Source: a virus. From it: DNA of 64,000 nt. Each line of letters starts with the position of its first letter. Within the stretch, counting starts at the first letter, position 1. This document shows, in pieces, positions 40,193-55,256 of the stretch. A program made the translations under genes and the position numbers. A model generated the notes under the pieces. That model ran no database searches. It was given only the letters and a program-made list of their open reading frames with translations, and was not told the origin of the DNA. The DNA is taken from positions 124,001-188,000 of the IMG/VR virus record IMGVR_UViG_3300005253_001115; one strand, given 5' to 3'.

Positions 40193-40653
40193 TTCTCTTC
40201 TCCTAGAGCTTCGATTAAGAAATCGTACACTTCTTGCTGCAATCCTGGGTTCTTAGACTCTCTGTTGCCTGCAACATTTAGTGTCTCAATCTTGTACATC
40301 TGGAGAAACTCTCCAAACAGATGAAAAGACTCCTCGCTAAATTCCTCAATCACCAAGCAAGGCTTGTTACTGTCCTTGCACATTCGTCTGGTGGTGTGCG
40401 AGCCGGGAGAGGAGACTCTCCCGAAAATGACAGTGGCATCAGAGTCTACCACATTGTACCGGGTTCGGGGAGCGTATTCGCCAGAAGCCAGCTCGCCTAC
40501 ATCGTACATTTTGGCGTATTCGGGATGATAGCCGTCTTCGGTCTTGAAGCCAAGGGGCATCTTGCCTCCTGTGGGAATACCCAGATATTTGGCTGCCTCT
40601 AAGCCACCTAGGTCCGCCCCGGACTGCGCTCCTGATATGATCTTCTTCAGCAT
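40189..40653 (-). CDS. SLOG-family protein (cpYpsA / putative molybdenum carrier-like)
   Basis: A 154-residue protein. The N-terminus IISGAQSGADLGGLEAAKYL is the glycine-rich nucleotide-binding loop of the circularly permuted YpsA/SLOG group. GGKMPLGFKTEDGYHPEYA follows. RTRYNVVDSDATVIFGR near residue 65 and the later kinked loop complete the pattern. SLOG proteins bind nucleotides or their derivatives. In phages and bacteria some act in defence or sensing. It lies between the glycosyltransferase cluster and the loader-like gene. The ligand is not predictable. Confidence 0.75.
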   Translation of the reverse strand: MLKKIISGAQSGADLGGLEAAKYLGIPTGGKMPLGFKTEDGYHPEYAKMYDVGELASGEYAPRTRYNVVDSDATVIFGRVSSPGSHTTRRMCKDSNKPCLVIEEFSEESFHLFGEFLQMYKIETLNVAGNRESKNPGLQQEVYDFLIEALGEEK

Positions 40654-41612
40654 TACTTCTCCTGAGATTTAGCCTGCCGCATGCGGCTGGCAGTACGCTT
40701 ATGTTCCGCTTCAATCTTGTCGATGGTAGCCGGTCGCCCATCAAAGAGATACTTGGTGGGGTTCATGGCCTTGTCACGATCGAAATTGCCTTTGTTGTGG
40801 AAACCCCATTTTCCAAAATGTTCAACATAAGATACAAGACTTGTAACCGCCTTACGTCCCGCGATTTCCCTGGAGTAGAAGCCGTCCCAGCCTCGCCCGT
40901 CCGGCACCTGAACCTTCTTGGGATTGTCCCGGAAACTCTTCATTCGGAAGAACATCGAGATGCCAGCCGCCATGCCACGTACCGAGGTGTATGGGTCGAT
41001 TACTTGGTTCTCGGTTCGTTTGCCACGAGGCGAGTGGAACTTGGCGTTGTAGAGGCAAATTGTACCCCAATTCGGGTACATTTCCATAATCTCGTGAAGA
41101 CGGTAGAAGAAATGTGGATCGTGTAGGCCGTCGCTATCGACGTGATAGAGGTACTCTGGTCCGTCAGGCCCAAAGTCCTCATCGAGCCAGGGCTTGAAGA
41201 TATCCGGCTTGAAATCACCCAGTACGCTCTTGGTAATGTTCGAGCGCAGGTTCTTAACGCCCCGCTTGCCACCCCTGGAGCGCTCGTGCCGGTACACCCG
41301 GTCGCAGAACTGCGCCAGCCACTCCTCGTCATATTCGTCGGAGCCGTCGTCATGGATGTACAGTTTCGCTTCCATCTTGTGGCGGTTCGTAGCCCCGATG
41401 CACATCTCTGCCGTGCCTCGGCGATTGTAGGTAAGAGGCGTGATGAGGGTCTTACGGGAGAGTGCCTTGACAGCTTCGTGATCGTAGTCAGCGAAGTGCG
41501 CAACAGCGTCAAACGGGACAATATATCCCGGCGCATTTGGATCAAACGGAATGGCTATAGACTTCACAGCTCGGGAAGGTGCCGGATTTTTTGGATCGGG
41601 TCTAATTGCCAT
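40653..41612 (-). CDS. Glycosyltransferase, GT2-like (GT-A fold)
   Basis: A 319-residue protein. The core has TLITPLTYNRRG, KLYIHDDGSDE and a DxD-like site in YLYHVDSDGLHDP (about residue 160), which binds the metal and sugar nucleotide in GT-A enzymes. A further FYSREIAGRK segment may shape the acceptor site. It is the last gene of the 20-gene decoration cluster in transcription order. The sugar and acceptor are unknown. Confidence 0.75.
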   Translation of the reverse strand: MAIRPDPKNPAPSRAVKSIAIPFDPNAPGYIVPFDAVAHFADYDHEAVKALSRKTLITPLTYNRRGTAEMCIGATNRHKMEAKLYIHDDGSDEYDEEWLAQFCDRVYRHERSRGGKRGVKNLRSNITKSVLGDFKPDIFKPWLDEDFGPDGPEYLYHVDSDGLHDPHFFYRLHEIMEMYPNWGTICLYNAKFHSPRGKRTENQVIDPYTSVRGMAAGISMFFRMKSFRDNPKKVQVPDGRGWDGFYSREIAGRKAVTSLVSYVEHFGKWGFHNKGNFDRDKAMNPTKYLFDGRPATIDKIEAEHKRTASRMRQAKSQEK

Positions 41613-42402
41613 TTCGGTTGTTTTTCCTGTGAAGGGCTAGTGTCAAGGCGAAGACCTCATCTAAGTCGTCTCCCGCTGCGACTACTTTAGGGTAGCTGCG
41701 CATTTTGGCGGGAAAACGATTAGTGAAGGATGCTACGGTTGGCACCCCCAATGCTGCTGCGATGTGGAATCCTCCGCTGTCCGGTCCCACAAACAGACGG
41801 GAGCATTGAATCTCATTCGCCATCTTTAGCATGTGGGAGCGCCCAGGCTCCATGTGGTCCTGCCCCACCATCCTCACGAGAGGGTGCTGCCCGTGGGAAT
41901 CCATGAACTCCATGAAGCGCGAAATGACCCTGCGCCCGGATTCCCATGCCTTGTTGCGGGGCTCCTGTGGGATGTGGAAGGAGATATCGACAGTGGGTGG
42001 GGCCTTGATCTCAGGATGGGAGATCTCCGGGTAGCGGTCATCCTCGGTCCTTACAGGACACATTGTGCCGTCTAGGTAGAGCTTGGGTTGCCTGCGCTCC
42101 AGAGTGACACCGGCAGCCTCCGCAAAAGCGTCGATACCGTGTTGGCCGAAGGGTGCTCGCTCGATTACACCGTGTAGATTTACATGCACATCATACCCCT
42201 CGGGGGTAGGGTCCCAGCAGCCGGTACGAGTACAGAGAATCTCATCAATCAGGGGGTGATAGAGCATCAGGTCGTAAACGTGCCTGTGGGTCCGGTAGGT
42301 AATGTAACAGGGGGCATACTTATCGTGAAGAGCCCGGAGGATGGGCTCTGTCATAAGCATGTCTCCGGCACCACCGAGACGTGTAAGAAGAATTCTAGTC
42401 AC
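41602..42402 (-). CDS. Glycosyltransferase, GT9 heptosyltransferase-like
   Basis: A 266-residue protein with GTG start at 42402, just before TRILLTRLGGAGDMLMTEP. That loop is the N-terminal signature of the ADP-heptose:LPS heptosyltransferase family (GT9). The C-terminal half has LFVGPDSGGFHIAAALGVPT, the family's second motif. It overlaps the upstream gene by 8 nt. Together with the HldD-like epimerase in the same cluster, the donor may be an ADP-heptose, but GT9-like phage enzymes can use other sugars. Confidence 0.75.
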   Translation of the reverse strand: MTRILLTRLGGAGDMLMTEPILRALHDKYAPCYITYRTHRHVYDLMLYHPLIDEILCTRTGCWDPTPEGYDVHVNLHGVIERAPFGQHGIDAFAEAAGVTLERRQPKLYLDGTMCPVRTEDDRYPEISHPEIKAPPTVDISFHIPQEPRNKAWESGRRVISRFMEFMDSHGQHPLVRMVGQDHMEPGRSHMLKMANEIQCSRLFVGPDSGGFHIAAALGVPTVASFTNRFPAKMRSYPKVVAAGDDLDEVFALTLALHRKNNRNGN

Positions 42403-43402
42403 GAAGAGTGCCCACCCAAGAACTTGCAGCCCCGTCAGCAGGAACATCTTCCCCGCTGATAAACTTCATCATCTTTTCCATTTGCTGGTCCCAGCCCCAG
42501 TTGGCGGACCATTCCCAACCCCGTCTTGCGATCTCTAGCCGTTCTTTGCTTTGATCCTTGTCCATCCAGTAACGTGCCTTCTCCAGAAGGTCCGGCACGT
42601 CACCGAAATTGAAGGTTACTAGCTGGTTGCCTTCCTCGAAGGAAGCAGCCACGTCCGTGTTCCTCTCGCTGAGAGCGAAGCCGCTGGAAGTTAGCAGGCG
42701 CACTAGGCGATTTGATGTGATGCCAACAGGGGTATCACCCTCACCCGGAGTACCACACACCATGTTCAGGCAAATGCCGCTGTTGTAGTACAACTTAGAA
42801 GCGTCCTCGTGGAAGATCCGCTTGTTGTGATGTACGCGAAAACCGTTACGCGCGAGAGCGGAAATTTTCGCCCGCCGACCACCGTCCCCTTTGTAGTTCG
42901 CGGACCCCAGAAACGCAATCTGGTCTGGGTTGGTGCGTGGAACATCAAGGTTCTGTGGACGCCAAAGACTGTGGCGACAACCCTGGTATATCTGGGCGAT
43001 TCGCCCCTTGAAGCCGTTGTTTCGGAACCAACGAGCGCCCTCTGATCCTGTCAAGAGGATACGGTCACACAGCAAACCGCGCTTCCCAATCTCATCTGGG
43101 CGACCCGGAGGACCACAGCCATTACCGCTAACGGAATCAAAGGTAAGGTACGTTGTGTCAGGCAGCGCGTTTACTAGGGCTGTGTAGACGCCCAGTGGGA
43201 TTACGGTGCCTTTACCGATTATGGTCGTATCGCAGCCCTCTGCCAGGGATGTTACGTAGTTGACGTAAGAATGGCTCTTGACAAGAGCGTTCTTGTTGGT
43301 CTCGATTTCTACCCATGTATGTCCCCCGGCCCGAAGACCGTCCAGCACACCGTAGATAGTGCTGCGCTTGTCGTTGAACGGGGCCATGATTGCAACCTTC
43401 AT
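42395..43402 (-). CDS. Glycosyltransferase, CgeB/GT-B-like
   Basis: A 335-residue protein starting at the ATG at 43402, which overlaps the upstream stop by ATGA. Reading further upstream would intrude on the epimerase gene. The C-terminal part (GITSNRLVRLLTSSGFALSE, then an E-E-G-N-Q-L segment) matches glycosyltransferases of the spore-maturation CgeB / Glyco_trans_1_2 group. The N-terminal half reads as the acceptor-binding Rossmann domain (MKVAIMAPFND). Sugar and acceptor are unknown. Confidence 0.7.
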   Translation of the reverse strand: MKVAIMAPFNDKRSTIYGVLDGLRAGGHTWVEIETNKNALVKSHSYVNYVTSLAEGCDTTIIGKGTVIPLGVYTALVNALPDTTYLTFDSVSGNGCGPPGRPDEIGKRGLLCDRILLTGSEGARWFRNNGFKGRIAQIYQGCRHSLWRPQNLDVPRTNPDQIAFLGSANYKGDGGRRAKISALARNGFRVHHNKRIFHEDASKLYYNSGICLNMVCGTPGEGDTPVGITSNRLVRLLTSSGFALSERNTDVAASFEEGNQLVTFNFGDVPDLLEKARYWMDKDQSKERLEIARRGWEWSANWGWDQQMEKMMKFISGEDVPADGAASSWVGTLRD

Positions 43403-44352
43403 AGTCCCAACCTCCTTACATAAGCGTTGATACCTCTCTGTAGGTCGATGAAGGACTGCGTATAGCCCGCGCGCCGCAACTTCGTCATCTCGGCCTTGGT
43501 GTAATACTGGTACTGGTCTCGAATGTCTTCCGGCGTGTCCACCCATACGATCTTGGGAAAGACTTTGAGGGCTTCGAAGGCTTTGATAGCTAGATCTAAG
43601 AAGGGGCTGGATGCGCCTGTACCTAGGTTGTAGATGCCACGCTTCGAGTTGGCAATAGACCAGTGCAGCACCTTCACCACGTCATCGACGTAGATGAAGT
43701 CTCGGGACTGCATACCGTCATCGTACTCTTCGTTGTGTGACCGAAACAGTATCAGCTTCTTTGTTTCCTTGATCTGTTTTAACGCCTGGTACACCATGCT
43801 GGCCATGCGGCCCTTATGGGACTCGCCGTATCCGTAGACGTTGAAGAACTTGAAGCCTGCCCAGCTCGGAGGTACGATACCTCGACGCTCTAATTTCAGA
43901 ACATCTAGGTCGAAGGCGTGCTTGGACATGCCGTAGTGGTTTAGTGGCATCAGGTTCCGCAGGTCGTCTTCGTCGTCCGAGAACGTATCCGCTGCTCCGT
44001 AGGTGGCTGCGCTAGAAGCGTACACGAAGGGAACCAGATACTCGGAAGCGTACTCCCACAGGTCGTGAGAGAAGTCCGTGTTGAGTCTACGAAGCTCGTG
44101 TATGTCGGAAGCTGCGGTGTCCGTAATAGCCCCTAGGTGAATAATGGCATCAATGTGCCGTGGGGCATCATGAAGAAGATGCTGCATGATGTCGTCGGTA
44201 TCAAGCTTCAGACCAAAATCGAGCCCATCGTGGTCTGGTCGGGAGAAATTGGCGAGCTTATCGACAGAGATCAGCTCGATCTTTTCCTTGTTGCAGCTCT
44301 CCACGAACCGGGCTCCGATGAACCCGGCGGCTCCTGTGACTAGGTATCTCAT
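43399..44352 (-). CDS. NAD-dependent epimerase, ADP-heptose 6-epimerase-like (HldD/RfaD)
   Basis: A 317-residue SDR-type epimerase. The NAD loop GAAGFIG is at residues 7-13, the catalytic Ser region SSA at 113-115, and Y140xxxK144. HLGAITDTAASD, RDFIYVDDVV and the end DQYQYYTKAEMTKLRRAGY match HldD, which converts ADP-D-glycero- to ADP-L-glycero-D-manno-heptose. HldD is needed for LPS core heptose. Other enzymes of that route are not in this window, so the phage may use host ADP-heptose. Substrate is inferred from family resemblance. Confidence 0.8.
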   Translation of the reverse strand: MRYLVTGAAGFIGARFVESCNKEKIELISVDKLANFSRPDHDGLDFGLKLDTDDIMQHLLHDAPRHIDAIIHLGAITDTAASDIHELRRLNTDFSHDLWEYASEYLVPFVYASSAATYGAADTFSDDEDDLRNLMPLNHYGMSKHAFDLDVLKLERRGIVPPSWAGFKFFNVYGYGESHKGRMASMVYQALKQIKETKKLILFRSHNEEYDDGMQSRDFIYVDDVVKVLHWSIANSKRGIYNLGTGASSPFLDLAIKAFEALKVFPKIVWVDTPEDIRDQYQYYTKAEMTKLRRAGYTQSFIDLQRGINAYVRRLGL

Positions 44353-44362
44353 GTCTGTACCT

Positions 44363-44929
44363 TTAGGGTATCTTGTAGAAGCACGCCTGAATATCGTCCA
44401 TGCCGTTCCAGTCCCTGGCCTGGAGAGGCTCTAACGAAAGGCGTGCAACAGTAGCTTCAAGCTGGTCCGGGAATACCTCGACACCGTAATCGTGGGCCGC
44501 GATGACAGACCCCATGGGGAGATGGTCGGCGTAGAAGTTGAACTCATCGACTTTGTTACCGCCGTCGCAGAAAAAGAAAGTGGGGCGATTGTCCATGAGG
44601 TTCGTGATAGCGCCCAGGCACTCCCAGTGATCTTGTGGGGAATTTCGCACGCCCAGGGCGTTGAATACAGGAAGAAGTGGCTCGTGTAGTTCGGGTCTGT
44701 TGTCGTAGGTAAGGAGTCTGTTCCCGCGCTGTACCGCGTGGAGGGCCAAAATCACCGACAGTGCTCCGGCTCCTGTCCCGATCTCCACAAAGCGTTGGAG
44801 CTGAGGGTTGGACGTAACGATGTCGTCAATGACCTTGTAAAGCCAGTACGTGTGCTGCTGACGCTGCCCTAGGAAGGTCTTGTACCATCGCTCTTGCACT
44901 ACCGGGTTGTCTCTGTTGTTGGGCCTCAC
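44363..44929 (-). CDS. SAM-dependent methyltransferase-like protein
   Basis: A 188-residue protein with GTG start overlapping the upstream stop by GTGA. FVEIGTGAGALSVILALHA near residues 47-65 is a class I SAM-binding motif. FFFCDGGNKVDEF near 115 may be the post-I acidic loop. The set of HDYGVEV and DWNGMDDIQ later is seen in sugar O-methyltransferases. It is part of the decoration cluster; the acceptor is unknown. Confidence 0.7.
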   Translation of the reverse strand: MRPNNRDNPVVQERWYKTFLGQRQQHTYWLYKVIDDIVTSNPQLQRFVEIGTGAGALSVILALHAVQRGNRLLTYDNRPELHEPLLPVFNALGVRNSPQDHWECLGAITNLMDNRPTFFFCDGGNKVDEFNFYADHLPMGSVIAAHDYGVEVFPDQLEATVARLSLEPLQARDWNGMDDIQACFYKIP

Positions 44930-45585
44930 AGCGGAACCGAAATCAAAGCTTCACCCTGCCCGGAAGGTAGGTGTATGTAGAACCAACCCGTGTCCGCAAC
45001 GAATGTCTTAACAGCCGCCGTTACCCCCACCTGTGCCCTATTCCACGGAGCTTCTTCCTTAAAGTCGTCTGCTAGAATGAAGCCGCCGGGACGCACAATG
45101 TCACGGGCAAGATACAGATCGCTGAGGCACCCTTCCTCGCTATGGTCGCCGTCAACGTGTACCAAATCAAAAAGCTCCATAGACTCCGCAAGGACCCGGG
45201 CCTCTGGGCTCAGAGAGTTTACCTCATAAGTAACAACAGTAGCCTCTGGGTACTTGTCTCGGAGAGTGTCTGTGGCGTGGTGCATGAAATTTCTCCTACC
45301 GCCCCAAGGAGCAAGACCCTTAACGCTCTGATTCATGTCCATACCCACATAGGTAGCTGTCGGGCATGCGTACAAAAAGGCCGCTGCCGCGTAGCCTGCC
45401 CGTATTCCTATCTCAAGAATGCGCTTTGGCTGCGTATGCTTGGCAATGGCAGCCTTATAGAGAGTGGATTCGTAAGCATCTGCCTTCCACGTCTTGCCGT
45501 CCGGCCCAGGGGGCTCAGACGGGTGAATGAACGGAGTATAGTCGAAAGTGCAACTTTCCGCACTAGCAATTATTTCTTCTCTCAC
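44926..45585 (-). CDS. SAM-dependent methyltransferase (Methyltransf_24-like)
   Basis: A 219-residue protein, GTG start with GTGA overlap. RILEIGIRAGYAAAAFLYA near residue 55 is motif I. DLVHVDGDHSEEG near 140 and RPGGFILADDF near 165 fit the Methyltransf_24 family, which methylates sugars and small molecules. No target residue can be named. It is coupled on both sides within the cluster. Confidence 0.78.
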   Translation of the reverse strand: MREEIIASAESCTFDYTPFIHPSEPPGPDGKTWKADAYESTLYKAAIAKHTQPKRILEIGIRAGYAAAAFLYACPTATYVGMDMNQSVKGLAPWGGRRNFMHHATDTLRDKYPEATVVTYEVNSLSPEARVLAESMELFDLVHVDGDHSEEGCLSDLYLARDIVRPGGFILADDFKEEAPWNRAQVGVTAAVKTFVADTGWFYIHLPSGQGEALISVPL

Positions 45586-46193
45586 TGTGCTTCTCCTTCA
45601 AACCAGAGCATAATTTCGATACCGTTGAGAATCTTATAGCGGGAAGCTCGCGCAGCTAGCTCATCATGTTCATCTAGTTGAACCCTGTGTTCCTTGGCGT
45701 CAGCCCATTTCTTGTCGGAGTAGGGAGCTACGAAAACCACAGCCTCCCTTGCTCGACTCAAACATTTTGGAAGCACGATGTCCATAAGTTGATCTCGTGT
45801 GAAGTGTTCAATCGTATGCGAAGAGAAAACGTAATCGAATGTCTCCACGTCTTCCTTTAGTATATCATGGACCCGAAAATCTATGGACTTGTCCAAACCC
45901 TTTTTGGCCTCCTCCAAAAGGTCCGTGGCCAAAATTGTGCCCAAATTCGATAGGTTACGAATAAGGTTGCAGTGTACTGGGTGCCCCGCTCCGAAAACCC
46001 ACAAGGAACTACCTTCCTTGAATTCGGAAATGGCCTCGTCGTAGTACCGAGGCGGTTTTTTTTCTTCCCCGCCGGGACCACCACGGTACTTCTTACGGTA
46101 GTACGGAAAAGTAGCAGCCTCGGTAGTAGACTCTCTTTCGATCATGCGTTTCAGCGGTTTGCCTGCGTCTTCAGGAATTGGTGTCCACTTCAT
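45582..46193 (-). CDS. SAM-dependent methyltransferase-like protein
   Basis: A 203-residue protein starting at the ATG at 46193 (ATGA overlap). Motif I is weak (SLWVFGAGHPVHCNLI) but FDYVFSSHTIEHF near 127 and the later strand FVAPY are typical of class I methyltransferases. The N-terminus is basic with a Pro/Glu-rich stretch. Activity is less certain than for the neighbours. Confidence 0.65.
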   Translation of the reverse strand: MKWTPIPEDAGKPLKRMIERESTTEAATFPYYRKKYRGGPGGEEKKPPRYYDEAISEFKEGSSLWVFGAGHPVHCNLIRNLSNLGTILATDLLEEAKKGLDKSIDFRVHDILKEDVETFDYVFSSHTIEHFTRDQLMDIVLPKCLSRAREAVVFVAPYSDKKWADAKEHRVQLDEHDELAARASRYKILNGIEIMLWFEGEAQ

Positions 46194-46819
46194 TTTCGTG
46201 CCCTGAAGCAATAGTGAGAATTCTTTCTCTCGGCACTAATAATCCCAGCATCATACTCGACCTCTGCGCCAAGGGATTCGGCAATAATTTCGGGACTTCT
46301 AACGTTCATGTGACTACATCGTTTTCGGGGAGGGTCTACATCGAAGGCCCATCCTCTATATTTTGGGTGTGCGTCATCAATGATAAGGAACATGCCTCCG
46401 GGTTTCACAACACGGCTAAGCTCTGAAGACCAGATCTTAAACTGTTCTGGTTCTACTATGTGCTGAATGACGGTGATGGCCACAACGGAATCAAATTCGC
46501 CGTCGTCGAAAGGAATTCTGTCATCCGGCAGGGCCACGTAAGATGTACCCTCCAGCTCCGGGGCAAATTTGAAAGCTCCTTCGTTAATGTCGGCTCCAAC
46601 GTAACTATCAGCCCTCTCCATCAGGGCTTCGGCAAAGCGACCCACCCCACACCCAAAATCCAGAACCCTCCCTATACTGGGCGGACAGATTCCCAGGATG
46701 GCGTCCTTGAATACTTCCCACTGCTGGTCTTTTACCGTGGTGCTGTTGCGTGTGGATACGTACAAGGCACCTTGGTTTTCTAGTCTGTCGGCCCACCACT
46801 GTCGGTTATACTCCGCCAT
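46190..46819 (-). CDS. SAM-dependent methyltransferase, paralogue of 51075-51698
   Basis: A 209-residue protein. The ATG at 46819 is preceded by GGGAGG eight nt upstream. VLDFGCGVGRFAEAL is the SAM motif I. ITVIQHIVEPE and RVVKPGGMFLIIDDA follow. It is clearly related to the methyltransferase at 51075-51698 (ALYVSTRNS, DFGCGVGRF, DDRIPF, QHIV, IDDA shared). The pair suggests duplication within the cluster. Acceptor unknown. Confidence 0.82.
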   Translation of the reverse strand: MAEYNRQWWADRLENQGALYVSTRNSTTVKDQQWEVFKDAILGICPPSIGRVLDFGCGVGRFAEALMERADSYVGADINEGAFKFAPELEGTSYVALPDDRIPFDDGEFDSVVAITVIQHIVEPEQFKIWSSELSRVVKPGGMFLIIDDAHPKYRGWAFDVDPPRKRCSHMNVRSPEIIAESLGAEVEYDAGIISAERKNSHYCFRARK

Positions 46820-47384
46820 ATCCGTAACCTCCCTTTCTAGGTCGGGCAGCATCCACCTTTTCCGCGATGTTCTTAAAGGTGTTTCTGTCCAGACCAAGCC
46901 ACTGTGCTATACCGTCCATAGTGTCGTGAAACTCGCTCATAAGATCTTCGTACCTTACGGTATAGATATCGGACCGGGTTTCCGCAAAACTGAGCCACTT
47001 TTCAACGGCTTCTTTCCAGCACTCATAAGGTGTCATGTATTGCTGGTCTCCTTCGATCCACCTGTTTAGTTGCTCCTGCTTCACTTTTCCGTCCTCTACC
47101 AGCTTGATCCAGGGTGTATTATTGAAAACTTTTGGAGAAATATCGCCGTTAATTCGGGATGACTGGGCTAGAAGAGAAGCTAAAACGTCTTCGTAGTTTC
47201 TCCACACGTACAAAAACCTTTCGTTCTTCTTCTCGAACAGTTTACCCAGAGGCTCGCCTGAGAAGGGAGGAGGCCATCTGTGGTGTTGGTTTCCCCTCTG
47301 TTGCATCGGTCCAAAAGCGTTCACCTCTACGAGATGGCATAGGTAGTGATTGCCGGAGCGCGGGTGGCCGAAGACGTGTATCAT
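46806..47384 (-). CDS. Sulfotransferase (PAPS-dependent)
   Basis: A 192-residue protein starting at the ATG at 47384 (ATGA overlap). HPRSGNHYL at residues 7-15 is the PAPS 5'-phosphosulfate loop. YVWRNYEDVLASLL near 65-80 holds the conserved Arg/Ser that bind the 3'-phosphate. TVRYEDLMSEF and IAQWLGLD near the C-terminus match the sulfotransferase fold. It should move sulfate from PAPS to a hydroxyl, most likely on a sugar. PAPS would come from the host. It is one of two in the cluster. Confidence 0.8.
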   Translation of the reverse strand: MIHVFGHPRSGNHYLCHLVEVNAFGPMQQRGNQHHRWPPPFSGEPLGKLFEKKNERFLYVWRNYEDVLASLLAQSSRINGDISPKVFNNTPWIKLVEDGKVKQEQLNRWIEGDQQYMTPYECWKEAVEKWLSFAETRSDIYTVRYEDLMSEFHDTMDGIAQWLGLDRNTFKNIAEKVDAARPRKGGYGYGGV

Positions 47385-48178
47385 AGAAGATGGTCCATAA
47401 ATTGGTGAAACGGCTCTGGATTTTCTGTTCTGCTTTTGAAGTACATGGTCAAGTAAGTGACCCATTGAGGAAATAACCGTCCGTAAAATGCTTGGGTGTG
47501 ACCAGAGGTTCTTGTGTACACCACACTAGGAACTTTTTGGCTGAGGGCAACGTAAGCCATTAGTCCCTGTATGCCTATGAACCCCGTGGCTCGGGATACT
47601 ACACCCATGCCCTCTAGTAAAGAGGTTTTCCCTATCAAATTCAACACATTGGGCTTAGTGAAAGTAGAGTACCTGTTAGCCTCCCCCACAAGTACAAAAG
47701 TATGCTTTGGGTACGCTCCGGTCATCCATTCCAATTCTTCATGTATGTCACGATGTCCCTGCTGCGGCTTTCCCGACTTAGGACAACAGGCTATGTAACT
47801 CCCTACTGGTTCGTGTTCTGACACAGGGAAAGTAAACTTCGGGTAGGCTGTCACGGGGGCGATTCCTCTGTTTGCACTCACGATTGGGCTGGGTCTGAAT
47901 CCGGGAGGGTCTCCTCTGACATTAGCTGGACAGGACCCTAGTGTTCTTTTCCACTCCTCGTGGTCTATGAAATTCACGTCTACGTTATGAGAAAGGGAAT
48001 AGATCTTCTCTATAAGGGGAATACCTTGCTGTTGCGTCTCAGGATCGCTACTGATGCACTGGTTGACAGTTATAGGTGTCCGGCTGGGGTCGTATAGTAT
48101 GGCGTTGAACAGGAATGCGTCTCCAATTGATCCTTTGCATACCAGATTCCGAACGTCGAGAGGGGGGCGTCTGCTCAT
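47381..48178 (-). CDS. GT9-like glycosyltransferase, paralogue of 50323-51075
   Basis: A 265-residue protein. The C-terminal motif (NLIGKTSLLEGMGVVSRATG, then FIGIQGLMAYVALSQKVPSV) resembles the donor-binding part of GT9/heptosyltransferases. There is no clear N-terminal LGD loop, but KGSIGDAFLFNAILYD is similar in shape. It is coupled by ATGA on both sides. The paralogue at 50323 shares the GKTS and KVPS motifs. Donor and acceptor unknown. Confidence 0.6.
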   Translation of the reverse strand: MSRRPPLDVRNLVCKGSIGDAFLFNAILYDPSRTPITVNQCISSDPETQQQGIPLIEKIYSLSHNVDVNFIDHEEWKRTLGSCPANVRGDPPGFRPSPIVSANRGIAPVTAYPKFTFPVSEHEPVGSYIACCPKSGKPQQGHRDIHEELEWMTGAYPKHTFVLVGEANRYSTFTKPNVLNLIGKTSLLEGMGVVSRATGFIGIQGLMAYVALSQKVPSVVYTRTSGHTQAFYGRLFPQWVTYLTMYFKSRTENPEPFHQFMDHLL

Positions 48179-48783
48179 AGCGGCTGACCTCCGATCTTCT
48201 CCTTAACGTCAACAAATTCACGGTTTTCCTCTCCGAGCCACGCAGCCATGTCACTCGTCGTTTTCTGAAATGAAGAAACAAGGAGATCGTAGTCCACCAC
48301 ATACACGTCTGTGCGATGAGCGGAGAAGTCTAACCAACTGCTCACATGGTGCTTCCAGTATTCATAAGGTGTCACCTCTGGAGGAGGGAGTGCCGAGGAA
48401 AAAGCACTGCCCGCGCCTCTCTTCGTTTCTCCGTCTATTTTCCACGCCCAGTGAGTTCCAGCTACGTGAAGCTCTCCCCAGGGAGTATCTGAGAACTCGG
48501 TCACTGTCAAATCTGTCCTGTGGATGCCGAACCTACCGGGCATGCGGAGAATAGACTTCGCCACGTCTTCGAACCCACGCCAAATGTAGAGATGTGGCAG
48601 GTCGTTTTCCTTGAAGGTGTTGGGTAAGCCATGCAGGGGGTAAGCCATGGTCTTTCGTCCATTTGCTTCGCGTAGGTGTCCCCAGGCCACTTCCCATATA
48701 CTGGGCTTGTGGATGAAGTTGGCATTCAGCACTGCCATGAGGTAGTGCGTGCCAGAGCGTGGGTGACTGTGAACGTTGTACAT
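48175..48783 (-). CDS. Sulfotransferase (PAPS-dependent), second copy
   Basis: A 202-residue protein. HPRSGTHYL at residues 7-15 is the PAPS loop. LYIWRGFEDVAKSIL near 75 gives the conserved Arg/Ser. VYVVDYDLLVSSF and MAAWLGEE match the later fold of sulfotransferases. It is diverged from the copy at 46806, so the two may act on different positions. It overlaps both neighbours. Confidence 0.8.
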   Translation of the reverse strand: MYNVHSHPRSGTHYLMAVLNANFIHKPSIWEVAWGHLREANGRKTMAYPLHGLPNTFKENDLPHLYIWRGFEDVAKSILRMPGRFGIHRTDLTVTEFSDTPWGELHVAGTHWAWKIDGETKRGAGSAFSSALPPPEVTPYEYWKHHVSSWLDFSAHRTDVYVVDYDLLVSSFQKTTSDMAAWLGEENREFVDVKEKIGGQPL

Positions 48784-49433
48784 TAACTTTTCGGTAGTGC
48801 TATCAAATAGATGGAATCCTTGTGGATCTTCTCTATGGTGTGGGTAGCTTCCAGTTCGCTAGTGATGAATTCGGAGGTTCCTGGGTTGTCGTAACCACGT
48901 TCCACGTACCAGTTCTTCGAGCCGTTCTTGTCGTACAGTCGCATGTCGTCAATGATAAACACGTCACCGCTGATGTCTCTTTGGGCCTTGATAACGCCCA
49001 GCTCCCTCTCAAGAGGGAAGGCAACGTCTCTATGAAGAAGCTCTGCCGTCGTTGCCTCTTTGTCTTTTTCGAATCTGGCACCCTTCTTCGGTACATGGGC
49101 GTCGAGCCACCACAGAATGTTTCCCTCAGAGATCTCAATAGCCTCGGGGAGCTTGTCCGCAGACTCTCCGTGAATCAGGTTGATGCTGTCGTCTAGCATC
49201 TTACGTTCGGGTGCTCCGGGTGCTGGATCGTGGTGCATTAGACCTATTTCGCCTGCCGATACAATCCACTTGTAGTCTATCTCGACCGCTACGAACTTCT
49301 CGATCCCAGACAGATTAGTAGTGGCCCAAGCCATACTTCGACCGTGTTCCAAACCGGTCTCAACAAGCGTCTTCAGGTTGTACTTGTCAACCCAGAGTTG
49401 GACCGTTAGAGCGTCACTTCCTAAATATCCCAT
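48783..49433 (-). CDS. Methyltransferase-like protein
   Basis: A 216-residue protein with TLVETGLEHGRSMAW near residue 22, similar to the first motif of class I methyltransferases (V-E-T/I-G-x-x-x-G). It also has FVAVEIDYKWI and a later ILWWLDAHVPKKG near 106, and ends VFIIDDMRLYD. Motif spacing fits a SAM-binding fold. The assignment is weaker than for its neighbours, and the cluster context supports it. Confidence 0.55.
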   Translation of the reverse strand: MGYLGSDALTVQLWVDKYNLKTLVETGLEHGRSMAWATTNLSGIEKFVAVEIDYKWIVSAGEIGLMHHDPAPGAPERKMLDDSINLIHGESADKLPEAIEISEGNILWWLDAHVPKKGARFEKDKEATTAELLHRDVAFPLERELGVIKAQRDISGDVFIIDDMRLYDKNGSKNWYVERGYDNPGTSEFITSELEATHTIEKIHKDSIYLIALPKS

Positions 49434-50326
49434 TACGTTCTCCTTTTTGCGGCGTGATAAGCCCTGAAATCCTCAATTTGCGGTAGACCGGCCTCTTCGA
49501 TTACCGGAGGATGCGGACCTTCGTACACATACAAGTTACCCCCACTATCGGGTGTAAAGCCCGGAGTCCAGCAGGGATTTCTGCGCTTGTAGTCTGCACC
49601 GAACAGCTCCATGCTCTTGTCGGTCCAGTAGGCTTCGTTATCTAGCTCAAAAGGCCGATAGATCTGATTCAACCAGTTCCATTTCCTCTGTTGTGCCTCG
49701 AATACGCGACCGGACTGCTGCTTGTATTCAGTCTTCCATTGTCTTTCCTTGTAGTCCTCTGGTGTCAGTAGACTGTAGTGGAACATACCTTTCTGCCCGG
49801 TGTCTCTAACAACATTGCGGTACTCAACCCGAGAATTCCAAGAGCAGGTCGGCAGGAACTTGCCGTTTCGGTCCTTGATTTTGTACAGGCGGTGGTGGGT
49901 GGAATGCAGGTACCTCTCCATATTGATAAAGAAGAACTTAGCGGGAAACTGGATAGTGTCTGCTGTCGGGTCATTCTCGATAATGTCTCTGGCTTCCTGT
50001 AGCGTTTCATCGAAATAAAACTCGTCCACATCCAACATGAACACCCAGTTTCCCGGCTCGTACAGAGTGCTGGCTGCCAGCATATTATTCAATGTCTTGC
50101 ACTTCCCTGTCGCTATGAACCCGTCGTTTATACAAGGCACCAAGGTAATCTTGTCGCCAAATTCTTGGGCCTTGAGCAGGGTAGTATCATGAAGCTCTGC
50201 CAGCAGCGGGGTATGTGCTCCGATGGAAACTATAACTTCGTCACAGAAGCTTAGAGCTTGCTTGATAGACGGACCAATGAAATCCTCAGCGTAATGCGCC
50301 CCGATCAGACCTATGATTTTGTTCAT
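49433..50326 (-). CDS. Glycosyltransferase, GT2-like
   Basis: A 297-residue protein starting at the ATG at 50326 (ATGA overlap). IIGLIGAHYAEDFI is the N-terminal strand-loop, and FMLDVDEFYFDE near residue 98 provides the DxD metal site. Later QFPAKFFFINMERYLHS and TCSWNSRVEY form the acceptor part. The pattern matches GT2-like enzymes found in phages and surface polysaccharide loci. Acceptor unknown. Confidence 0.75.
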   Translation of the reverse strand: MNKIIGLIGAHYAEDFIGPSIKQALSFCDEVIVSIGAHTPLLAELHDTTLLKAQEFGDKITLVPCINDGFIATGKCKTLNNMLAASTLYEPGNWVFMLDVDEFYFDETLQEARDIIENDPTADTIQFPAKFFFINMERYLHSTHHRLYKIKDRNGKFLPTCSWNSRVEYRNVVRDTGQKGMFHYSLLTPEDYKERQWKTEYKQQSGRVFEAQQRKWNWLNQIYRPFELDNEAYWTDKSMELFGADYKRRNPCWTPGFTPDSGGNLYVYEGPHPPVIEEAGLPQIEDFRAYHAAKRRT

Positions 50327-51075
50327 ATCATGAACCTCTTGAACGCCAACGGGTCTTCCGATCGGCAGGTTTTGACTACAGAACAGTATCTCTCCCATTC
50401 AGGGAATAGGCGAGATCGAAACGCTTTATCGTACCCCACCGATTTGGTGTAAACAAAACTGGGGACCTTGGAACTGGCTGCGACGTACACCATCAATCCC
50501 TGTACGCCGATGAATTTTTTGGCTCGGGATACAATTCCGATAGCTTCCAAAATTGAAGTCTTTCCTATCAAGTTCGTCACATTATGGCGGGAATAGCCAA
50601 GGAATTCTGGATTGTCACCCACGAGAACGAACTGCTGGTCTTTGTACTCCTCGATTAGGGAGGATATCTCATCCTCCCCCACCTGTCTGTGTCCCTCGTT
50701 TGATTTCCCGCCACGGGGAGAGCAGGCGATGTAGCTTCCTGTCACCTGTTTCGTTGCGGGGAACTTAAACGGTGGGTGTGGGTTCATTACGCTCATCCCA
50801 CCCTCTCTTTCTCTTGCTTTTTCTATGGACGGCCAGAGGCGAGGAAATTTCTGCGAAGGTAGACTGTTAAACTCTTCTTTGTTAACGAATTCCACCTGAA
50901 TTTTTGGCATAAGAGAATAGATCTGCCGGATATGCGGCTCCCAATGGTCTACAGCATTGCCAGCGTAATCGCTGCACTGCTTGATAAGGATCTTCTCGCG
51001 ACTCGCTAACCCGTGAACTACACAGTTAACGATGTACGAGTCCCCAAGTGTTCCTCTGCACTTAAACGTTTTCAT
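50323..51075 (-). CDS. GT9-like glycosyltransferase, paralogue of 47381-48178
   Basis: A 250-residue protein. It shares the pattern RGTLGDSYIVN at the N-terminus and NLIGKTSILEAIGIVSRAKK, then FIGVQGLMVYVAASSKVPSF with its paralogue. The middle part differs. One-base and 4-nt overlaps couple it to its neighbours. Duplication and divergence are likely; donor unknown. Confidence 0.6.
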   Translation of the reverse strand: MKTFKCRGTLGDSYIVNCVVHGLASREKILIKQCSDYAGNAVDHWEPHIRQIYSLMPKIQVEFVNKEEFNSLPSQKFPRLWPSIEKAREREGGMSVMNPHPPFKFPATKQVTGSYIACSPRGGKSNEGHRQVGEDEISSLIEEYKDQQFVLVGDNPEFLGYSRHNVTNLIGKTSILEAIGIVSRAKKFIGVQGLMVYVAASSKVPSFVYTKSVGYDKAFRSRLFPEWERYCSVVKTCRSEDPLAFKRFMI

Positions 51076-51698
51076 TAGACTTTCCTTGATCGGAACAAGT
51101 AGTGAGAATTAGGCCGCTCGGCGCTGATGACTCCGAAATCCTCATCAATTACCGAACCCAGAGACTCGCTTATGACTTGGGGACCACGGATCTTCATGTG
51201 TTTACCCATCTTAGGGCTCTGATCTGCGTCATCAATGATGTAGATAAGGCCACCGGGCTTAACTACCCGGGCGATTTCGCTGGACCAGATAACGTAGTGC
51301 TCGGGGTCAACAATGTGCTGGAGAACGGTGAGGGCCATAGCGGAATCGAAGCTATTGTCCTCGAAGGGAATACGGTCCTCTGGCAGACCGACGAACTCCA
51401 CGTTCGGGAGATCGGGGGCATGCTCGAAAGCGCCTGAGTTGATATCGACGCCTACGTAGCTAGAAGCGAACTCCCTAGCCGCCGCAGCAAAGCGACCTAC
51501 ACCGCAGCCAAAGTCGATAATGCGCCCCGGGTCAGTACCCTCCATGGCCTGCCTGAGGGAGTCTCGGAAGACTTCCCACTGGTGGTCATTCACTGTCTTG
51601 CTGTTTCGCGTGGACACATATAGGGCACCCTCCTTCTTCAGGCGAGCAGGCCAGTATTCCCTGGCGATGTACGGGTTTTTTCGCAGGTCAGTGCTCAT
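51075..51698 (-). CDS. SAM-dependent methyltransferase, paralogue of 46190-46819
   Basis: A 207-residue protein starting at the ATG at 51698 (ATGA overlap). It has IIDFGCGVGRFAAAA as motif I, LPEDRIPFEDNSFDSAMALT as motif II region and VVKPGGLIYIIDDA as the later strand. It is strongly related to the 46190 gene, and the order methyltransferase then GT9-like is similar at both sites. Acceptor unknown. Confidence 0.82.
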   Translation of the reverse strand: MSTDLRKNPYIAREYWPARLKKEGALYVSTRNSKTVNDHQWEVFRDSLRQAMEGTDPGRIIDFGCGVGRFAAAAREFASSYVGVDINSGAFEHAPDLPNVEFVGLPEDRIPFEDNSFDSAMALTVLQHIVDPEHYVIWSSEIARVVKPGGLIYIIDDADQSPKMGKHMKIRGPQVISESLGSVIDEDFGVISAERPNSHYLFRSRKV

Positions 51699-52528
51699 GT
51701 CTTTGTCCAATGCTTAATGGGGGTTTCTGGGTTCATTCTGGCCACACAGCTATTGAAGGATAAGTCCACGTTAGGGGTTGGAACGTCGATGAACGTGACT
51801 GGGGTATTGAAGGGGTTCCAGTAGCTAAGGTAGCGTTCCATAGAAACTACGGGACGCCCGTACCAAGAGACGTGAGGTGTGCCGCAAGCACTAGCAAGAT
51901 GTAATGTCCCGCTGCTGGGTCCGATAGCAACTTTAGCCGCAGACAAGGCTCCACACAGGTCTCCCAGACCAACTCCTCTGAAGTCTACCGTACCTTCGAT
52001 GTACACGTTGTCAGTGCCTCCGTAACAGGCCACAGAATACCCGGCGTCTAGAAGACGTTTGACCAGACCTTCGCATTTGTCCCGTGGATACTCCTTTTCC
52101 GGGTAAGATCGTTTGCGGTACTTCTTCGGACCACGGAAGGCGCACATGATGTCTGCAACATGCTTGGGCCTCTCTGACCCCAGCTTCCTCCATTCTTTGG
52201 GGTGAATACCGTCCACCTTATCAGCCACCTTGATGGCCTTGAACTCTTTCTTGGCGTGGGCTTTCCAGAACCACATAGGGGTAATTGACCTCGTTCCCGC
52301 AGGAGGCTGGAAGGCAGGCTTGGACACTTTGCCAGAGTACATGTCGAAGTCCGGCAAGTGCGGATTTATGATGATCTCGTCCGCAAACTCGTACAAGTAT
52401 TCGCTGTCGGGCTGTGTCTCCACAATGACATGATCGTAGTCCTTAGCGATGTGCCGGATAGACGGGCTCCACGAGGCGATCTCCCACCCGAACTCTCCTA
52501 CCCAAGGCCCTGCGTACAGTTTCTTCAC
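51695..52528 (-). CDS. Glycosyltransferase, GT9-like
   Basis: A 277-residue protein, GTG start in a GTGA overlap. Near the end, AAKVAIGPSSGTLHLASACG and PHVSWYG match the second motif of heptosyltransferase-like enzymes. The N-terminus (MKKLYAGPWVGEFGWEIASW) resembles the GEFGWE type of GT-B phage/bacterial transferases. Donor and acceptor unknown. Confidence 0.7.
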   Translation of the reverse strand: MKKLYAGPWVGEFGWEIASWSPSIRHIAKDYDHVIVETQPDSEYLYEFADEIIINPHLPDFDMYSGKVSKPAFQPPAGTRSITPMWFWKAHAKKEFKAIKVADKVDGIHPKEWRKLGSERPKHVADIMCAFRGPKKYRKRSYPEKEYPRDKCEGLVKRLLDAGYSVACYGGTDNVYIEGTVDFRGVGLGDLCGALSAAKVAIGPSSGTLHLASACGTPHVSWYGRPVVSMERYLSYWNPFNTPVTFIDVPTPNVDLSFNSCVARMNPETPIKHWTKT

Positions 52529-53418
52529 GTCTTGTCTCCGAGCATGTAGTCCAGCCTGTGCGCAGCCGTGTCCCTACTTCGATACAGCTCTGTACCCCAG
52601 TTGCGAATTCTTGCCACCTCCCCAGGATTCTCTAAGTAGTAGCTGGCCAGTTCTCGGGCCTCCTGTGGAGTCTTAAACCACACCAGATGTTTCTTGTTCT
52701 CGAACAGCTTCTCGATTCCGGGGAACCAGTTCACCAACGCGAAACCGTTGGAACTAAGGATATTGTACAGGCGGTTCGAGGTGTACCCTTTGGCGGGTAG
52801 TGATATGGACAAGGACACGGGAGACATAGCATACAGGTACTTCTGGTCCTTGGTTAGACCCTCTCTGTTGATGATCTTGACAGGGTGTTCTTTCCTGATC
52901 TCTTCGATAATAGGGGAGCGGTTTCCGTGAAACTCCCTGGCACTAATCAACGCCTTCAATTTGTCCGTGTCTGTCGGGTTTGAAGCCTCGAACGCGCTAC
53001 CTGGTCGTACTATCCCAAGGAACAGGATGTCCTCATCGAACTTCCTTCCGTTTTTGACATCGGCATCGTTTCCGCACTGCGGGAGGTAGTAGGCTGGCTT
53101 ACCAAAATGCTCAGCGTAGGCATCCGTGAACAACTGGTTGCATACAAACATTTCGGAAGCAGTTGTGCCGGATGTGATGATCTTCGGGTCCCGCAAATCG
53201 CACATCCACCACAGTATTTTGGCAGAAGTCTGGAAAGTCGGTGGGGTATTCATGAAGTACACGATGACATCGTAGTCGTCCCAACTCTTACCGCCAGGGG
53301 CAATGCCTTCCTTGCCCTTGGGCATCTCCAGCACATCAAAGCCTTTTGCCTTGGCGGCGATGGCTAGGGATGCTTGGATGGGACCGATAGGGAGTCTGTA
53401 CGCCACTGCTACTTTCAC
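52525..53418 (-). CDS. Glycosyltransferase, CgeB/GT-B-like
   Basis: A 297-residue protein, GTG start in a GTGA overlap. The C-terminal part (AKGYTSNRLYNILSSNGFAL, then WFPGIEKLFE) closely resembles that at 42395, with the same NGFAL/SGFAL core. The N-terminus reads MKVAVAYRLPIGP. It belongs to the CgeB/Glyco_trans_1_2 group. Sugar unknown. Confidence 0.72.
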   Translation of the reverse strand: MKVAVAYRLPIGPIQASLAIAAKAKGFDVLEMPKGKEGIAPGGKSWDDYDVIVYFMNTPPTFQTSAKILWWMCDLRDPKIITSGTTASEMFVCNQLFTDAYAEHFGKPAYYLPQCGNDADVKNGRKFDEDILFLGIVRPGSAFEASNPTDTDKLKALISAREFHGNRSPIIEEIRKEHPVKIINREGLTKDQKYLYAMSPVSLSISLPAKGYTSNRLYNILSSNGFALVNWFPGIEKLFENKKHLVWFKTPQEARELASYYLENPGEVARIRNWGTELYRSRDTAAHRLDYMLGDKT

Positions 53419-53855
53419 GGCTTGACCAGCTCACATGTGAAGAATCTCTTGTCCGTCTCCAGCTTTCGCAGGGTCCATCCCTGGAAACCGTAGTGGCGGC
53501 CGTAATTCTTCCATTGCTGTGTGGCCAGGTCCATGTAGAGAAACGACCGAGGGAAGAAGAACCGCTTGTGGGTAGGGTCTCCGAAAGCAGCATCGGGCCA
53601 ATTCTCGGCATCCGGTACCTTCCACCAAAACACCCCGCCCTTCTGTACTACCCGGAACACCTCATTCATGGCGAACATGAACTCATCGTTGTCGAAGTGT
53701 TCCATGAGGTTATCGGCCTCGACTAGCTCCACGGAGTTGTCCTCGTAGGGTAGCCGGTCCTTGCCGATGTTGCAGATGACATCCGCAGGAGCCTGCATGT
53801 CAATGTTGACATAGCCCTTCTTGTGCAGCTTACCGCACCCGATATTTAGCTTCAT
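53415..53855 (-). CDS. SAM-dependent methyltransferase (short, Methyltransf_11-like)
   Basis: A 146-residue protein beginning KLNIGCGKLHKKGYVNID, with the SAM motif right at the N-terminus. VELVEADNLMEHF and VFRVVQKGGVFWWKVPD follow. It lacks the usual N-terminal helical part, so it is at the lower end of the family's size. This short form is common in polysaccharide loci. Acceptor unknown. Confidence 0.75.
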   Translation of the reverse strand: MKLNIGCGKLHKKGYVNIDMQAPADVICNIGKDRLPYEDNSVELVEADNLMEHFDNDEFMFAMNEVFRVVQKGGVFWWKVPDAENWPDAAFGDPTHKRFFFPRSFLYMDLATQQWKNYGRHYGFQGWTLRKLETDKRFFTCELVKP

Positions 53856-54685
53856 TTGTTGCCCCCAGTTCCGGGAGGAGCCATGGCCGCTTTTAGGGCG
53901 TTAAATTTCGCGTCTGCTCTTTTTTGTGCTGCTGAACGCTGTATCGCTTTGGCCACTTGTTTCGCTCTGTCCGCATTTGCCGCCCTGTTCGCTTGTGCCG
54001 CGCTACCCGTTTGTGTTTTTTTAGCTATGGCCGCTTGTGCCACAGCCATCCTTTCAGGAGTGTGCCATTTACTGATGAACAGCTCCTTGGCCTTTTTCTT
54101 GAGGGCCAATATATCCTTGCCGCGTGCTTCAGCTATTGGGGTGCTAGACATTCCGTGATGGAATATGAATACGTCTGTACGGATTGCGGTGGTATAGCCG
54201 TGTTCCTGTACCTCCATACAAAAATCACTGTCTTCGCCGTAAAGTTCAAACTCTTCGTCAAAGCCTCCTATCTCTTCCCACACAGACTTTGGAAAAACGA
54301 TACAAAAACCAACTAGCGGGTACTTGACAACCATAAGCCGCTTGTGCTTTGTTTGGAACTTCCTGCAATTTCCTTGCGGCCCTGTAGACTTGTTGGTCAT
54401 GGGGCCAACGGCCCCCAGTTTGTCATCTTCTTCGAAGCACTCAAGCAGGCGGCTTAGCCACGCTGCCTCTACTCGGGTGTCGTTGTTCAGAAGGCAAATA
54501 TACTCGGCATCCGAGGCCCGAATAAGGTCGTTCCAGACCTTAGACAGCCCCTCATCGGCTTCGTAGTTGTCGTGCGCCGTCAGGACATACTCCACGTCCT
54601 GAGTGTGCTCTTCCACACTAGAGACGCACTCGGCCTCTAGTTCCGGTAAGCCGTATTTGACGATGATGATCTCACACTTCGCCAT
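53852..54685 (-). CDS. Glycosyltransferase, GT2-like, with Ala/Lys-rich C-terminal tail
   Basis: A 277-residue protein starting at the ATG at 54685 (GAGG six nt upstream). CEIIIVKYGLPELEAECVSS opens the GT-A fold. YICLLNNDTRVEAAWL near residue 72 is the nucleotide-sugar site. GGFDEEFELYGEDSDFCMEV near 145 is the typical rhamnosyl/GT2 acceptor motif. Residues of about 213-277 form an Ala/Lys/Arg-rich helix not found in normal GT2 enzymes. Sugar unknown. Confidence 0.8.
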   Translation of the reverse strand: MAKCEIIIVKYGLPELEAECVSSVEEHTQDVEYVLTAHDNYEADEGLSKVWNDLIRASDAEYICLLNNDTRVEAAWLSRLLECFEEDDKLGAVGPMTNKSTGPQGNCRKFQTKHKRLMVVKYPLVGFCIVFPKSVWEEIGGFDEEFELYGEDSDFCMEVQEHGYTTAIRTDVFIFHHGMSSTPIAEARGKDILALKKKAKELFISKWHTPERMAVAQAAIAKKTQTGSAAQANRAANADRAKQVAKAIQRSAAQKRADAKFNALKAAMAPPGTGGNK

Positions 54686-55256
54686 CACGAACCTCGTTCT
54701 TTACGCATCGGGTTCCGTACCGCTTGTTGGGGCCGGACACCTCAATTGATTGCCAAGTGTCGAAATATTCGTCCACGGCCTTATTGGTACCTGGACATCT
54801 GGGGGCATTGTAGTCATCGAAGACCATGATCCCGCCTTCCACCAGACGCGGCCAGAATAGTTCAATGGCAGCCTTCGTGGATTCGTAGATGTCCACATCG
54901 ACATGCACTAGACAGAATCTAAGGTCCGTGAGTCCCTCGGCGCTCTCCGGGAACCAGCCAGGCCAGAACTCCACGTTGTCCCTGTCCTTTAGTAAAGCCT
55001 GTACGGCCTCCAGGGAGGTGTCAGCGAAGTCCCCCGGCTCGTGTATGTCGAACTCGGGGTTGGTCGGCGGCATCCCTTCGAAGGTGTCAAAGAGGTGAAT
55101 GAGCTTCATAGGCAAGTAATCGGCAAGTATCTGGGCAGTTCCGCCTTTATACACACCAATCTCTGCCACACTACCAGTAAGGTCGCGCACCTGTAAACAC
55201 TGCTTGGCTAGGAATTCTTGCCGTACCTCGGGTACGACGCTATTCGTCTTCCTCAT
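54672..55256 (-). CDS. TylF/macrocin-type sugar O-methyltransferase
   Basis: A 194-residue protein starting at the ATG at 55256. VAEIGVYKGGTAQILADYLP is motif I, LIHLFDTFEGMPP follows and CLVHVDVDIYESTKAAIELF with MVFDDYNAPRCPG provides the metal-binding acidic residues typical of TylF enzymes. These methylate deoxysugar hydroxyls. It is the first gene of the cluster in transcription order, overlapping the PhoH stop by 17 nt. Confidence 0.82.
   Translation of the reverse strand: MRKTNSVVPEVRQEFLAKQCLQVRDLTGSVAEIGVYKGGTAQILADYLPMKLIHLFDTFEGMPPTNPEFDIHEPGDFADTSLEAVQALLKDRDNVEFWPGWFPESAEGLTDLRFCLVHVDVDIYESTKAAIELFWPRLVEGGIMVFDDYNAPRCPGTNKAVDEYFDTWQSIEVSGPNKRYGTRCVKNEVRDGEV

Follow-up and report, generated by a model that had tools for sequence, protein, structure and literature searches.

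A twenty-gene cluster of glycosyl-, methyl- and sulfotransferases in a jumbo phage, with a conserved core, an exchanged cassette and a possible target on collagen-like fibres

The window analysed here, a 64,000-nucleotide stretch, comprises positions 124001-188000 of the 266,640-bp IMG/VR record IMGVR_UViG_3300005253_001115, a jumbo phage (G000). An initial annotation of this DNA had described twenty coupled genes for building, methylating and sulfating a glycan, and the open reading frame (ORF) calls bore out their number, strand and coordinates: 20 consecutive ORFs (g01-g20) occupy 55265-40653 on the minus strand without a break, between PhoH and a YpsA-like gene. Once five gene starts had been shifted to internal start codons, 12 of the 19 junctions were overlaps of 1-4 nt, in keeping with the tight coupling originally described, six were overlaps of 8-22 nt and one was a 10-nt gap. 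The genes and both boundaries are given below. Coordinates of the cluster and its borders are those of the window and all others those of the record, unless the sister phage G001, introduced below, is named.

54672..55265, minus: g01, TylF-type sugar O-methyltransferase (PF05711, 71 bits, cut-off 23)
53852..54688, minus: g02, glycosyltransferase (GT) of family GT2 (PF13632, 36.8 bits, cut-off 27)
53415..53855, minus: g03, small methyltransferase, Methyltransf_11 (PF08241, 24.7 bits, cut-off 21.2; 34% identical to a G001 counterpart)
52525..53418, minus: g04, CgeB-like GT, Glyco_trans_1_2 (PF13524, 51 bits, cut-off 25)
51695..52528, minus: g05, GT9-like GT (PF01075, 24.3 bits, cut-off 22; 49% identical to G001 gene L002:4488-5285)
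51075..51710, minus: g06, methyltransferase, Methyltransf_11 (PF08241, 62 bits; paralogue of g13, 54%)
50323..51075, minus: g07, putative GT-B/GT9-like enzyme, paralogue of g11 (hhalign to GT9, probability 18%, E 0.0014)
49433..50326, minus: g08, weakly GT2-like (PF13704, E 0.0055, under cut-off; DVD motif; start shifted by 24 aa)
48783..49433, minus: g09, no family match (Pfam, PHROG, NCBIfam and PDB searched)
48175..48783, minus: g10, sulfotransferase, Sulfotransfer_1 (PF00685, 28.7 bits, cut-off 22; motifs HPRSGTH and RGFEDVAKS for the sulfate donor 3'-phosphoadenosine-5'-phosphosulfate, PAPS)
47381..48178, minus: g11, paralogue of g07 (39%; no Pfam match)
46806..47384, minus: g12, sulfotransferase, 31% identical to g10 (PF00685, 41.4 bits; HPRSGNH and RNYEDVLAS; start shifted by 27 aa)
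46190..46819, minus: g13, methyltransferase, Methyltransf_11, paralogue of g06 (PF08241, 60.5 bits; start shifted by 26 aa)
45582..46211, minus: g14, weakly methyltransferase-like (PF08241, E 0.0069, under cut-off)
44926..45585, minus: g15, methyltransferase, Methyltransf_24 (PF13578, 47.9 bits, cut-off 26.3)
44363..44929, minus: g16, weakly methyltransferase-like (PF13578, 19.9 bits, E 0.0014, under cut-off 26.3; motif I EIGTGAG)
43399..44352, minus: g17, HldD, ADP-glyceromanno-heptose 6-epimerase, first core gene (TIGR02197, 307 bits, cut-off 274.6; 74% in G001)
42395..43402, minus: g18, CgeB-like GT, core (PF13524, 39.5 bits; 71% in G001; start shifted by 48 aa)
41602..42402, minus: g19, GT9, heptosyltransferase-like, core (PF01075, 31 bits, cut-off 22; 81% in G001)
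40653..41612, minus: g20, GT2-like, Pfam-weak, core (PF00535, E 0.0017; DSD motif; 77% in G001)
55240..56991, minus: PhoH, upstream boundary, apparently interrupted by an intein (G001 orthologue of 232 aa without the insert)
40189..40653, minus: circularly permuted YpsA, downstream boundary (PF12694, 122.9 bits; 86% in G001)

Thirteen of the 20 proteins (g01-g06, g10, g12, g13, g15 and g17-g19) score above curated cut-offs, all as enzymes of sugar, methyl or sulfo transfer or of heptose-nucleotide synthesis, which upholds the earlier reading of an assembly line, and a row of 20 sugar-type genes is not chance. The two sulfotransferases named at the outset keep both the PAPS 5' loop HPRSG[TN]H and the 3'-phosphate motif RxxEDVxxS, and a profile built from them matches solved sulfotransferase structures. 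The HldD assignment of g17 rests on an equivalog-level score as well as on the short-chain dehydrogenase/reductase motifs GAAGFIG and YGMSK, and both CgeB-like GTs (g04 and g18) passed the PF13524 cut-off. Other counts in the initial annotation stood in part. Among three GT2 enzymes, g02 exceeds its cut-off, whereas g08 and g20 are weak matches, each with a DxD-like motif; among four GT9 enzymes, g05 and g19 are firm (the latter reaching 40.7 bits against the heptosyltransferase III model, under its cut-off), whereas g07 and g11 are unproven; and the eight methyltransferases become five firm, two weak (g14 and g16) and one unproven (g09). In total, 14.6 kb hold five firm GTs and as many as four that are weak or unproven. 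PDB searches with g08, g14, g16 and g20 gave no meaningful match. No match was found for g07 or g11 in Pfam, NCBIfam, PHROG or PDB, leaving the weak GT9 profile link (hhalign 18%), nor for g09 in the same four collections. Structure models of g07 (predicted local distance difference test, pLDDT, 51, low confidence) and g09 (pLDDT 32) were of too low quality to help with assignment, and no conclusion was drawn from a Foldseek comparison of g07. The internal paralogue pairs g06/g13 (54%), g07/g11 (39%) and g10/g12 (31%) suggest that the cluster grew by duplication.

The architecture of the locus became apparent by comparison with a sister phage, G001 (IMGVR_UViG_3300037755_000305), a 184,111-bp contig reached via HldD similarity, which is colinear, in inverted orientation, with the record's first 192 kb. 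G001 has matches to 113 of 128 background genes, with a median identity of 78%; for 89 genes the identity is at least 60% along most of the gene. The patatin, PhoH and YpsA flanks are conserved there together with g17-g20 (74, 71, 81 and 77%), whereas none of g01-g16 has a counterpart at 60% or more. Weaker relatives exist for g05 (49%), g06/g13 (50%) and g03, g04, g10 and g12 (30-34%); the remaining genes of g01-g16 have no G001 relative of useful length. In their place, G001 carries a GT9, methyltransferases, a PhyH dioxygenase, a sulfotransferase, a polysaccharide pyruvyltransferase and a CgeB-like GT. Since g17-g20 were kept while g01-g16 were replaced, the locus is, on gene content, a conserved core with a replaced cassette, predicted to perform the same kind of task with different chemistry. 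The cluster is therefore not inherited as one unit, so that independent inheritance, which the initial annotation had named as counter-evidence, applies in part; the genes are not scattered, however, and locus and kind of task are kept, although sixteen of the twenty are exchanged in the sister phage. Swapping of decoration genes is how bacteria change serotype, and the locus appears to behave like a serotype cassette with a conserved, putative heptose core and swappable decorations. Two further genes interrupt or follow the core in G001: the product of one (L002:11897-12382) has 161 aa and about four hydrophobic stretches and looks MgtC-like, and the other (L002:14102-16420), directly after the g20 orthologue, encodes a 772-aa LamG-like protein, distantly related (22%) to a 1031-aa protein of the record.

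The window has structural and replication genes around it, among them a tail-sheath match, a sliding-clamp match and a DNA ligase. Promoter and terminator scans yielded no more than expected by chance. The record's helicase has distant relatives (about 30% identity) in large myoviruses including GR7B, NCTB, Lu11 and BcepSauron, and g20 is 32% identical to a protein of a 636-kb uncultured phage. Upstream, the PhoH gene carries an apparent in-frame intein of about 350 aa at the P-loop (GTGK^TYLA), and directly beyond it lies a gene for a patatin-like protein conserved in both phages (window 56909-57814, minus strand).

The pathway extends beyond the window, further sugar genes being encoded elsewhere in the record. 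An HldE2-like adenylyltransferase gene is found at 30948-31361, with a G001 version 77% identical; the two proteins score 150.8 bits (record) and 159 bits (G001) against TIGR02199, missing the equivalog cut-off of 181.5, and the nucleotidyltransferase motif HVGH is present. With HldE2-like and HldD proteins in both phages, the last two enzymes of ADP-heptose synthesis appear to be phage-encoded, so that heptose is the probable sugar. A further GT9 gene lies at 114504-115631. In G001, the HldE2-like gene is directly adjoined by a sulfotransferase-like gene (151919-152518) whose product has the PAPS-type loop HPRSGTS, and another phage contig (L003:340-2977) has an almost complete ADP-heptose operon, in which PfkB, cupin, HldE2-like and HldD-like genes follow one another.

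What the glycan is attached to, a point on which the initial annotation had listed several candidates and chosen none, has to be judged from the enzymes present and from their neighbours. ADP-heptose, GT9 and HldD are classical elements of lipopolysaccharide-core synthesis, and ADP-heptose sets occur both in cyanophage P-SSM2 and on contig L003, so that the enzymes might build or decorate a host O-antigen or capsule and thereby block superinfection; polymorphism between sister phages would also fit a cell-surface arms race. However, no clear transmembrane segment was found in any cluster protein, and Pfam scans of the remaining record, in which few ORFs have several hydrophobic segments, revealed no flippase, polymerase, GtrA, lipid-carrier GT or ABC-exporter family, meaning that a host pathway would have to be borrowed. 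A small edit would hardly call for as many as nine GTs, and the rest of the cluster was missing from 80 bacterial neighbourhoods around the nearest HldD genes. We therefore consider host-envelope modification rather unlikely, though the most serious of the alternatives, and a lipid-linked envelope polymer appears the less likely target. O-antigen conversion of the GtrABC/Oac type was set aside in particular, as the Pfam scans gave no membrane flippase, lipid-linked GT or export family and the cluster has no clear transmembrane segment. The absence of such segments and of export and lipid-carrier families suggests instead cytoplasmic assembly on a soluble acceptor.

Two non-protein products were also weighed. 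Phages are known to glucosylate DNA, and the methylase families MethyltransfD12 and N6_N4_Mtase occur elsewhere in the record, so that a glycan on hypermodified bases might be imagined. PF00303 (hydroxymethylase/thymidylate synthase), however, is absent from both phages, only Thy1 being present, which argues against hydroxymethylated DNA and agrees with the initial view of DNA as the less likely target; no known DNA-glucosyltransferase family was matched either. To our knowledge, a methylated, sulfated oligosaccharide on bases would be without precedent, and we regard this explanation as scarcely credible. An oligosaccharide or a saccharide-tailored secondary metabolite that leaves the infected cell would accommodate TylF, a family of macrolide-sugar methyltransferases, and the weak match of the sulfotransferases to the tailoring enzyme Teg14, and a metabolite role has been weighed for a second cyanophage cluster (PMC7824862). 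Pfam scans of the record, on the other hand, found neither a polyketide or peptide scaffold synthase nor an exporter, and such a product is highly improbable.

A protein acceptor is suggested by a second region of the record. Ten collagen-like genes with long Gly-X-Thr repeats lie between 63456 and 108733, with Thr at the Y position of 506 of the 819 Gly-X-Y triplets in the record and 335 of the 542 in G001 (62% in both), rising to 92% of Y positions in the fibre at 87359-88858; the published averages for bacteria are lower, at 31.6% overall and 48.3% in Gram-positive bacteria (PMC8968730). The collagen-like gene at 72926-75199 ends in an apparent phage tail-collar domain, and three others at 84.4-90.7 kb have no syntenic G001 counterpart, so that fibre content varies too. 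Two genes downstream of a collagen-like fibre gene lies a gene (77675-80491) for a 938-aa protein, 84% identical in G001, in which Methyltransf_23, GT2, tetratricopeptide repeat (TPR) and GT9 regions are fused. PF00535 is matched with 58.8 bits, TPR_12 just misses its cut-off (29.8 against 30.1 bits) and engineered TPRs are matched with E 3.6e-9; the GT2 part matches Listeria GmaR (E 2.5e-4) and the GT2-TPR part phrog_13126 (5.9e-27). In Clostridioides difficile, the gene of SgtA, a GT with TPRs, lies next to bclA3, and the enzyme attaches sugar to Thr of collagen repeats (PMC7157674); in Caulobacter FlmG it is the TPR part that binds the acceptor (PMC7591256). The methyltransferase region of the 938-aa protein has a stand-alone relative, encoded at 213605-214432, with which it shares 42% identity.

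The glycosylated virion protein could instead be a capsid, sheath or LamG protein and not a collagen-like fibre. In an unrelated Manatee Spring podovirus, a GT2-TPR gene follows the major capsid gene region and is itself followed by more GT and methyltransferase genes, an arrangement that would suit a capsid acceptor, and the position of the 772-aa LamG-like gene of G001 directly after the g20 orthologue would suit a LamG acceptor. The conserved fused GT2-TPR enzyme, however, adjoins collagen-like fibre genes, which makes this alternative improbable and a tail-fibre protein the best-supported candidate target.

The reading that we prefer, to which we give a probability of roughly one half (0.5), is a glycan assembly line that works wholly in the cytoplasm, combines a conserved core with an exchangeable cassette and acts on a virion acceptor, most likely Thr of collagen-like fibres. 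The 938-aa enzyme would prime the first sugar, and the GT9, GT2 and CgeB-like enzymes of the cluster, with those encoded elsewhere, would add sugars singly onto the soluble protein. Further sugars, followed by O-methyl caps from S-adenosyl-L-methionine and sulfate caps from host PAPS, would be contributed by the g01-g16 enzymes, in this presumed order. The acceptor would be a virion structural protein, most likely at Thr of the Gly-X-Thr collagen-like tail-fibre proteins, and the cassette swap between sister phages would alter the exposed decoration in a serotype-like manner, presumably giving the virion a different outer chemistry. The fuller version, in which the phage attaches a sulfated, methylated, heptose-containing glycan to collagen-like tail fibres and the swappable cassette defines a virion serotype, is more tentative and falls somewhat short of even odds; equally tentative is its analogy, by which the system might be to phages what glycosylated fibrils are to giant viruses and glycosylated collagens to spores.

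Several observations weigh against this interpretation. Both the glycan and the glycoprotein are predicted here from genes alone, and seven of the 20 genes are weakly matched or have no family match. The cluster adjoins replication genes; it is separated from the closest collagen-like gene and from the gene of the 938-aa enzyme by at least 56 and 84 kb, respectively, and the first of these distances is a genuine weakness of the proposed link. Bacterial collagens often have Thr at Y, glycosylated or not. No collagen repeats were found in the checked stretches of the Manatee Spring GT2-TPR phages, so that this comparison supports a virion protein in general and not collagen in particular. Without a PfkB/HldE1 (PF00294) match in the record or G001, heptose supply would depend on the host. 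Gene calling outside the window was approximate and may have missed an export gene, and similar phage clusters have been read as host-surface modifiers (PMC7824862, PMC7029224).

Sugar clusters as such are already known from cyanophages, jumbo and other marine phages and mimiviruses. The locus resembles the "capsular polysaccharide modification" clusters of cyanophage P-SSM2 and of jumbo phages (PMC7824862; NC_006883) in that a large phage carries many clustered sugar genes, including ADP-heptose enzymes (HldE2 type and HldD-like epimerase), and in that the set is polymorphic between relatives. The P-SSM2 set sits between tail-fibre genes with phoH nearby (NC_006883) and includes phosphoheptose isomerase, carbohydrate kinase and carbamoyltransferase, no listed gene being annotated as a sulfotransferase. 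The present cluster differs in its 20 genes, two sulfotransferases and up to eight methyltransferases, and in that no upstream heptose genes were found; the PfkB-type kinase, present in complete cyanophage sets and missing from reduced sets of other jumbo phages, is unmatched here. The host-recognition cluster of pelagimyophages is likewise a hypervariable island in a syntenic genome, with GTs and rfaE, and tail-fibre and collagen-repeat genes lie in the structural region (PMC7029224). That island, however, holds the fibres themselves and no sulfotransferase is mentioned (PMC7029224), whereas here the cassette is apart from the fibres.

Mimivirus glycogene clusters are clade-specific and variable, with 6-33 genes including glycosyl-, methyl- and pyruvyltransferases and, in some clusters, sulfate metabolism; the virus has collagen-like proteins, and a collagen glycosyltransferase (L230) is encoded outside the cluster (PMC9614988). 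Mimiviruses, in contrast, are giant viruses of eukaryotes and synthesize rare sugar nucleotides themselves, and L230, which hydroxylates and glucosylates lysine, represents another chemistry and family (PMC9614988). For the setting of the 938-aa enzyme, a close parallel is SgtA-BclA3 of C. difficile, where the gene of a GT-TPR enzyme adjoins that of a collagen-like protein whose Gly-Pro-Thr repeats are O-glycosylated; SgtA, however, is cellular, uses UDP-GlcNAc and lacks the fused methyltransferase and GT9 domains (PMC7157674). The size of the cluster, its two sulfotransferases, the core and swapped cassette seen by sister comparison, and the GT2-TPR enzyme gene beside Thr-rich fibres appear to be new here.

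The whole locus has no DNA-level similarity to phage records, and close IMG/VR relatives of the sulfotransferases, helicase, g20, 938-aa protein and g07/g11 were confined to the sister contig or not found. The nearest bacterial HldD genes are 45-54% identical and come, mostly as metagenome-assembled genomes, from Myxococcaceae, Planctomycetota, Oligoflexia/Bdellovibrionales and Bacteroidetes; as their 80 neighbourhoods held no cluster genes beyond a few marginal matches, no bacterial donor of the whole block was found. Among open-access full texts, no paper joining phage-encoded sulfotransferases with glycosyl- and methyltransferases was found, nor, among the papers listed, any on a sulfated phage virion, which is weak evidence of novelty. 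Elsewhere in the record, an Acb1 match (anti-CBASS, PF23474, E 8.6e-8) and a 2_5_RNA_ligase2 match at 60-124 kb may indicate counter-defence, while NAPRTase, PRPP synthetase, IMPDH and NUDIX domains at 188-266 kb suggest a phage NAD/purine set, in a region that also encodes a GGDEF (diguanylate cyclase) domain and a ribosomal L7/L12 C-terminal domain.

The locus offers a concrete test of an old ambiguity, since the many sugar clusters in jumbo and marine phages might modify either the envelope of the host or the virion itself. If the interpretation put forward here is true, some phages go beyond editing the host surface and cover their fibres in a complex sugar that is sulfated, methylated and particular to the lineage. 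Glycosylation of the virion would then be a trait altered by exchanging cassettes, and the soluble enzymes could serve to make sulfated O-glycans on collagen repeats.

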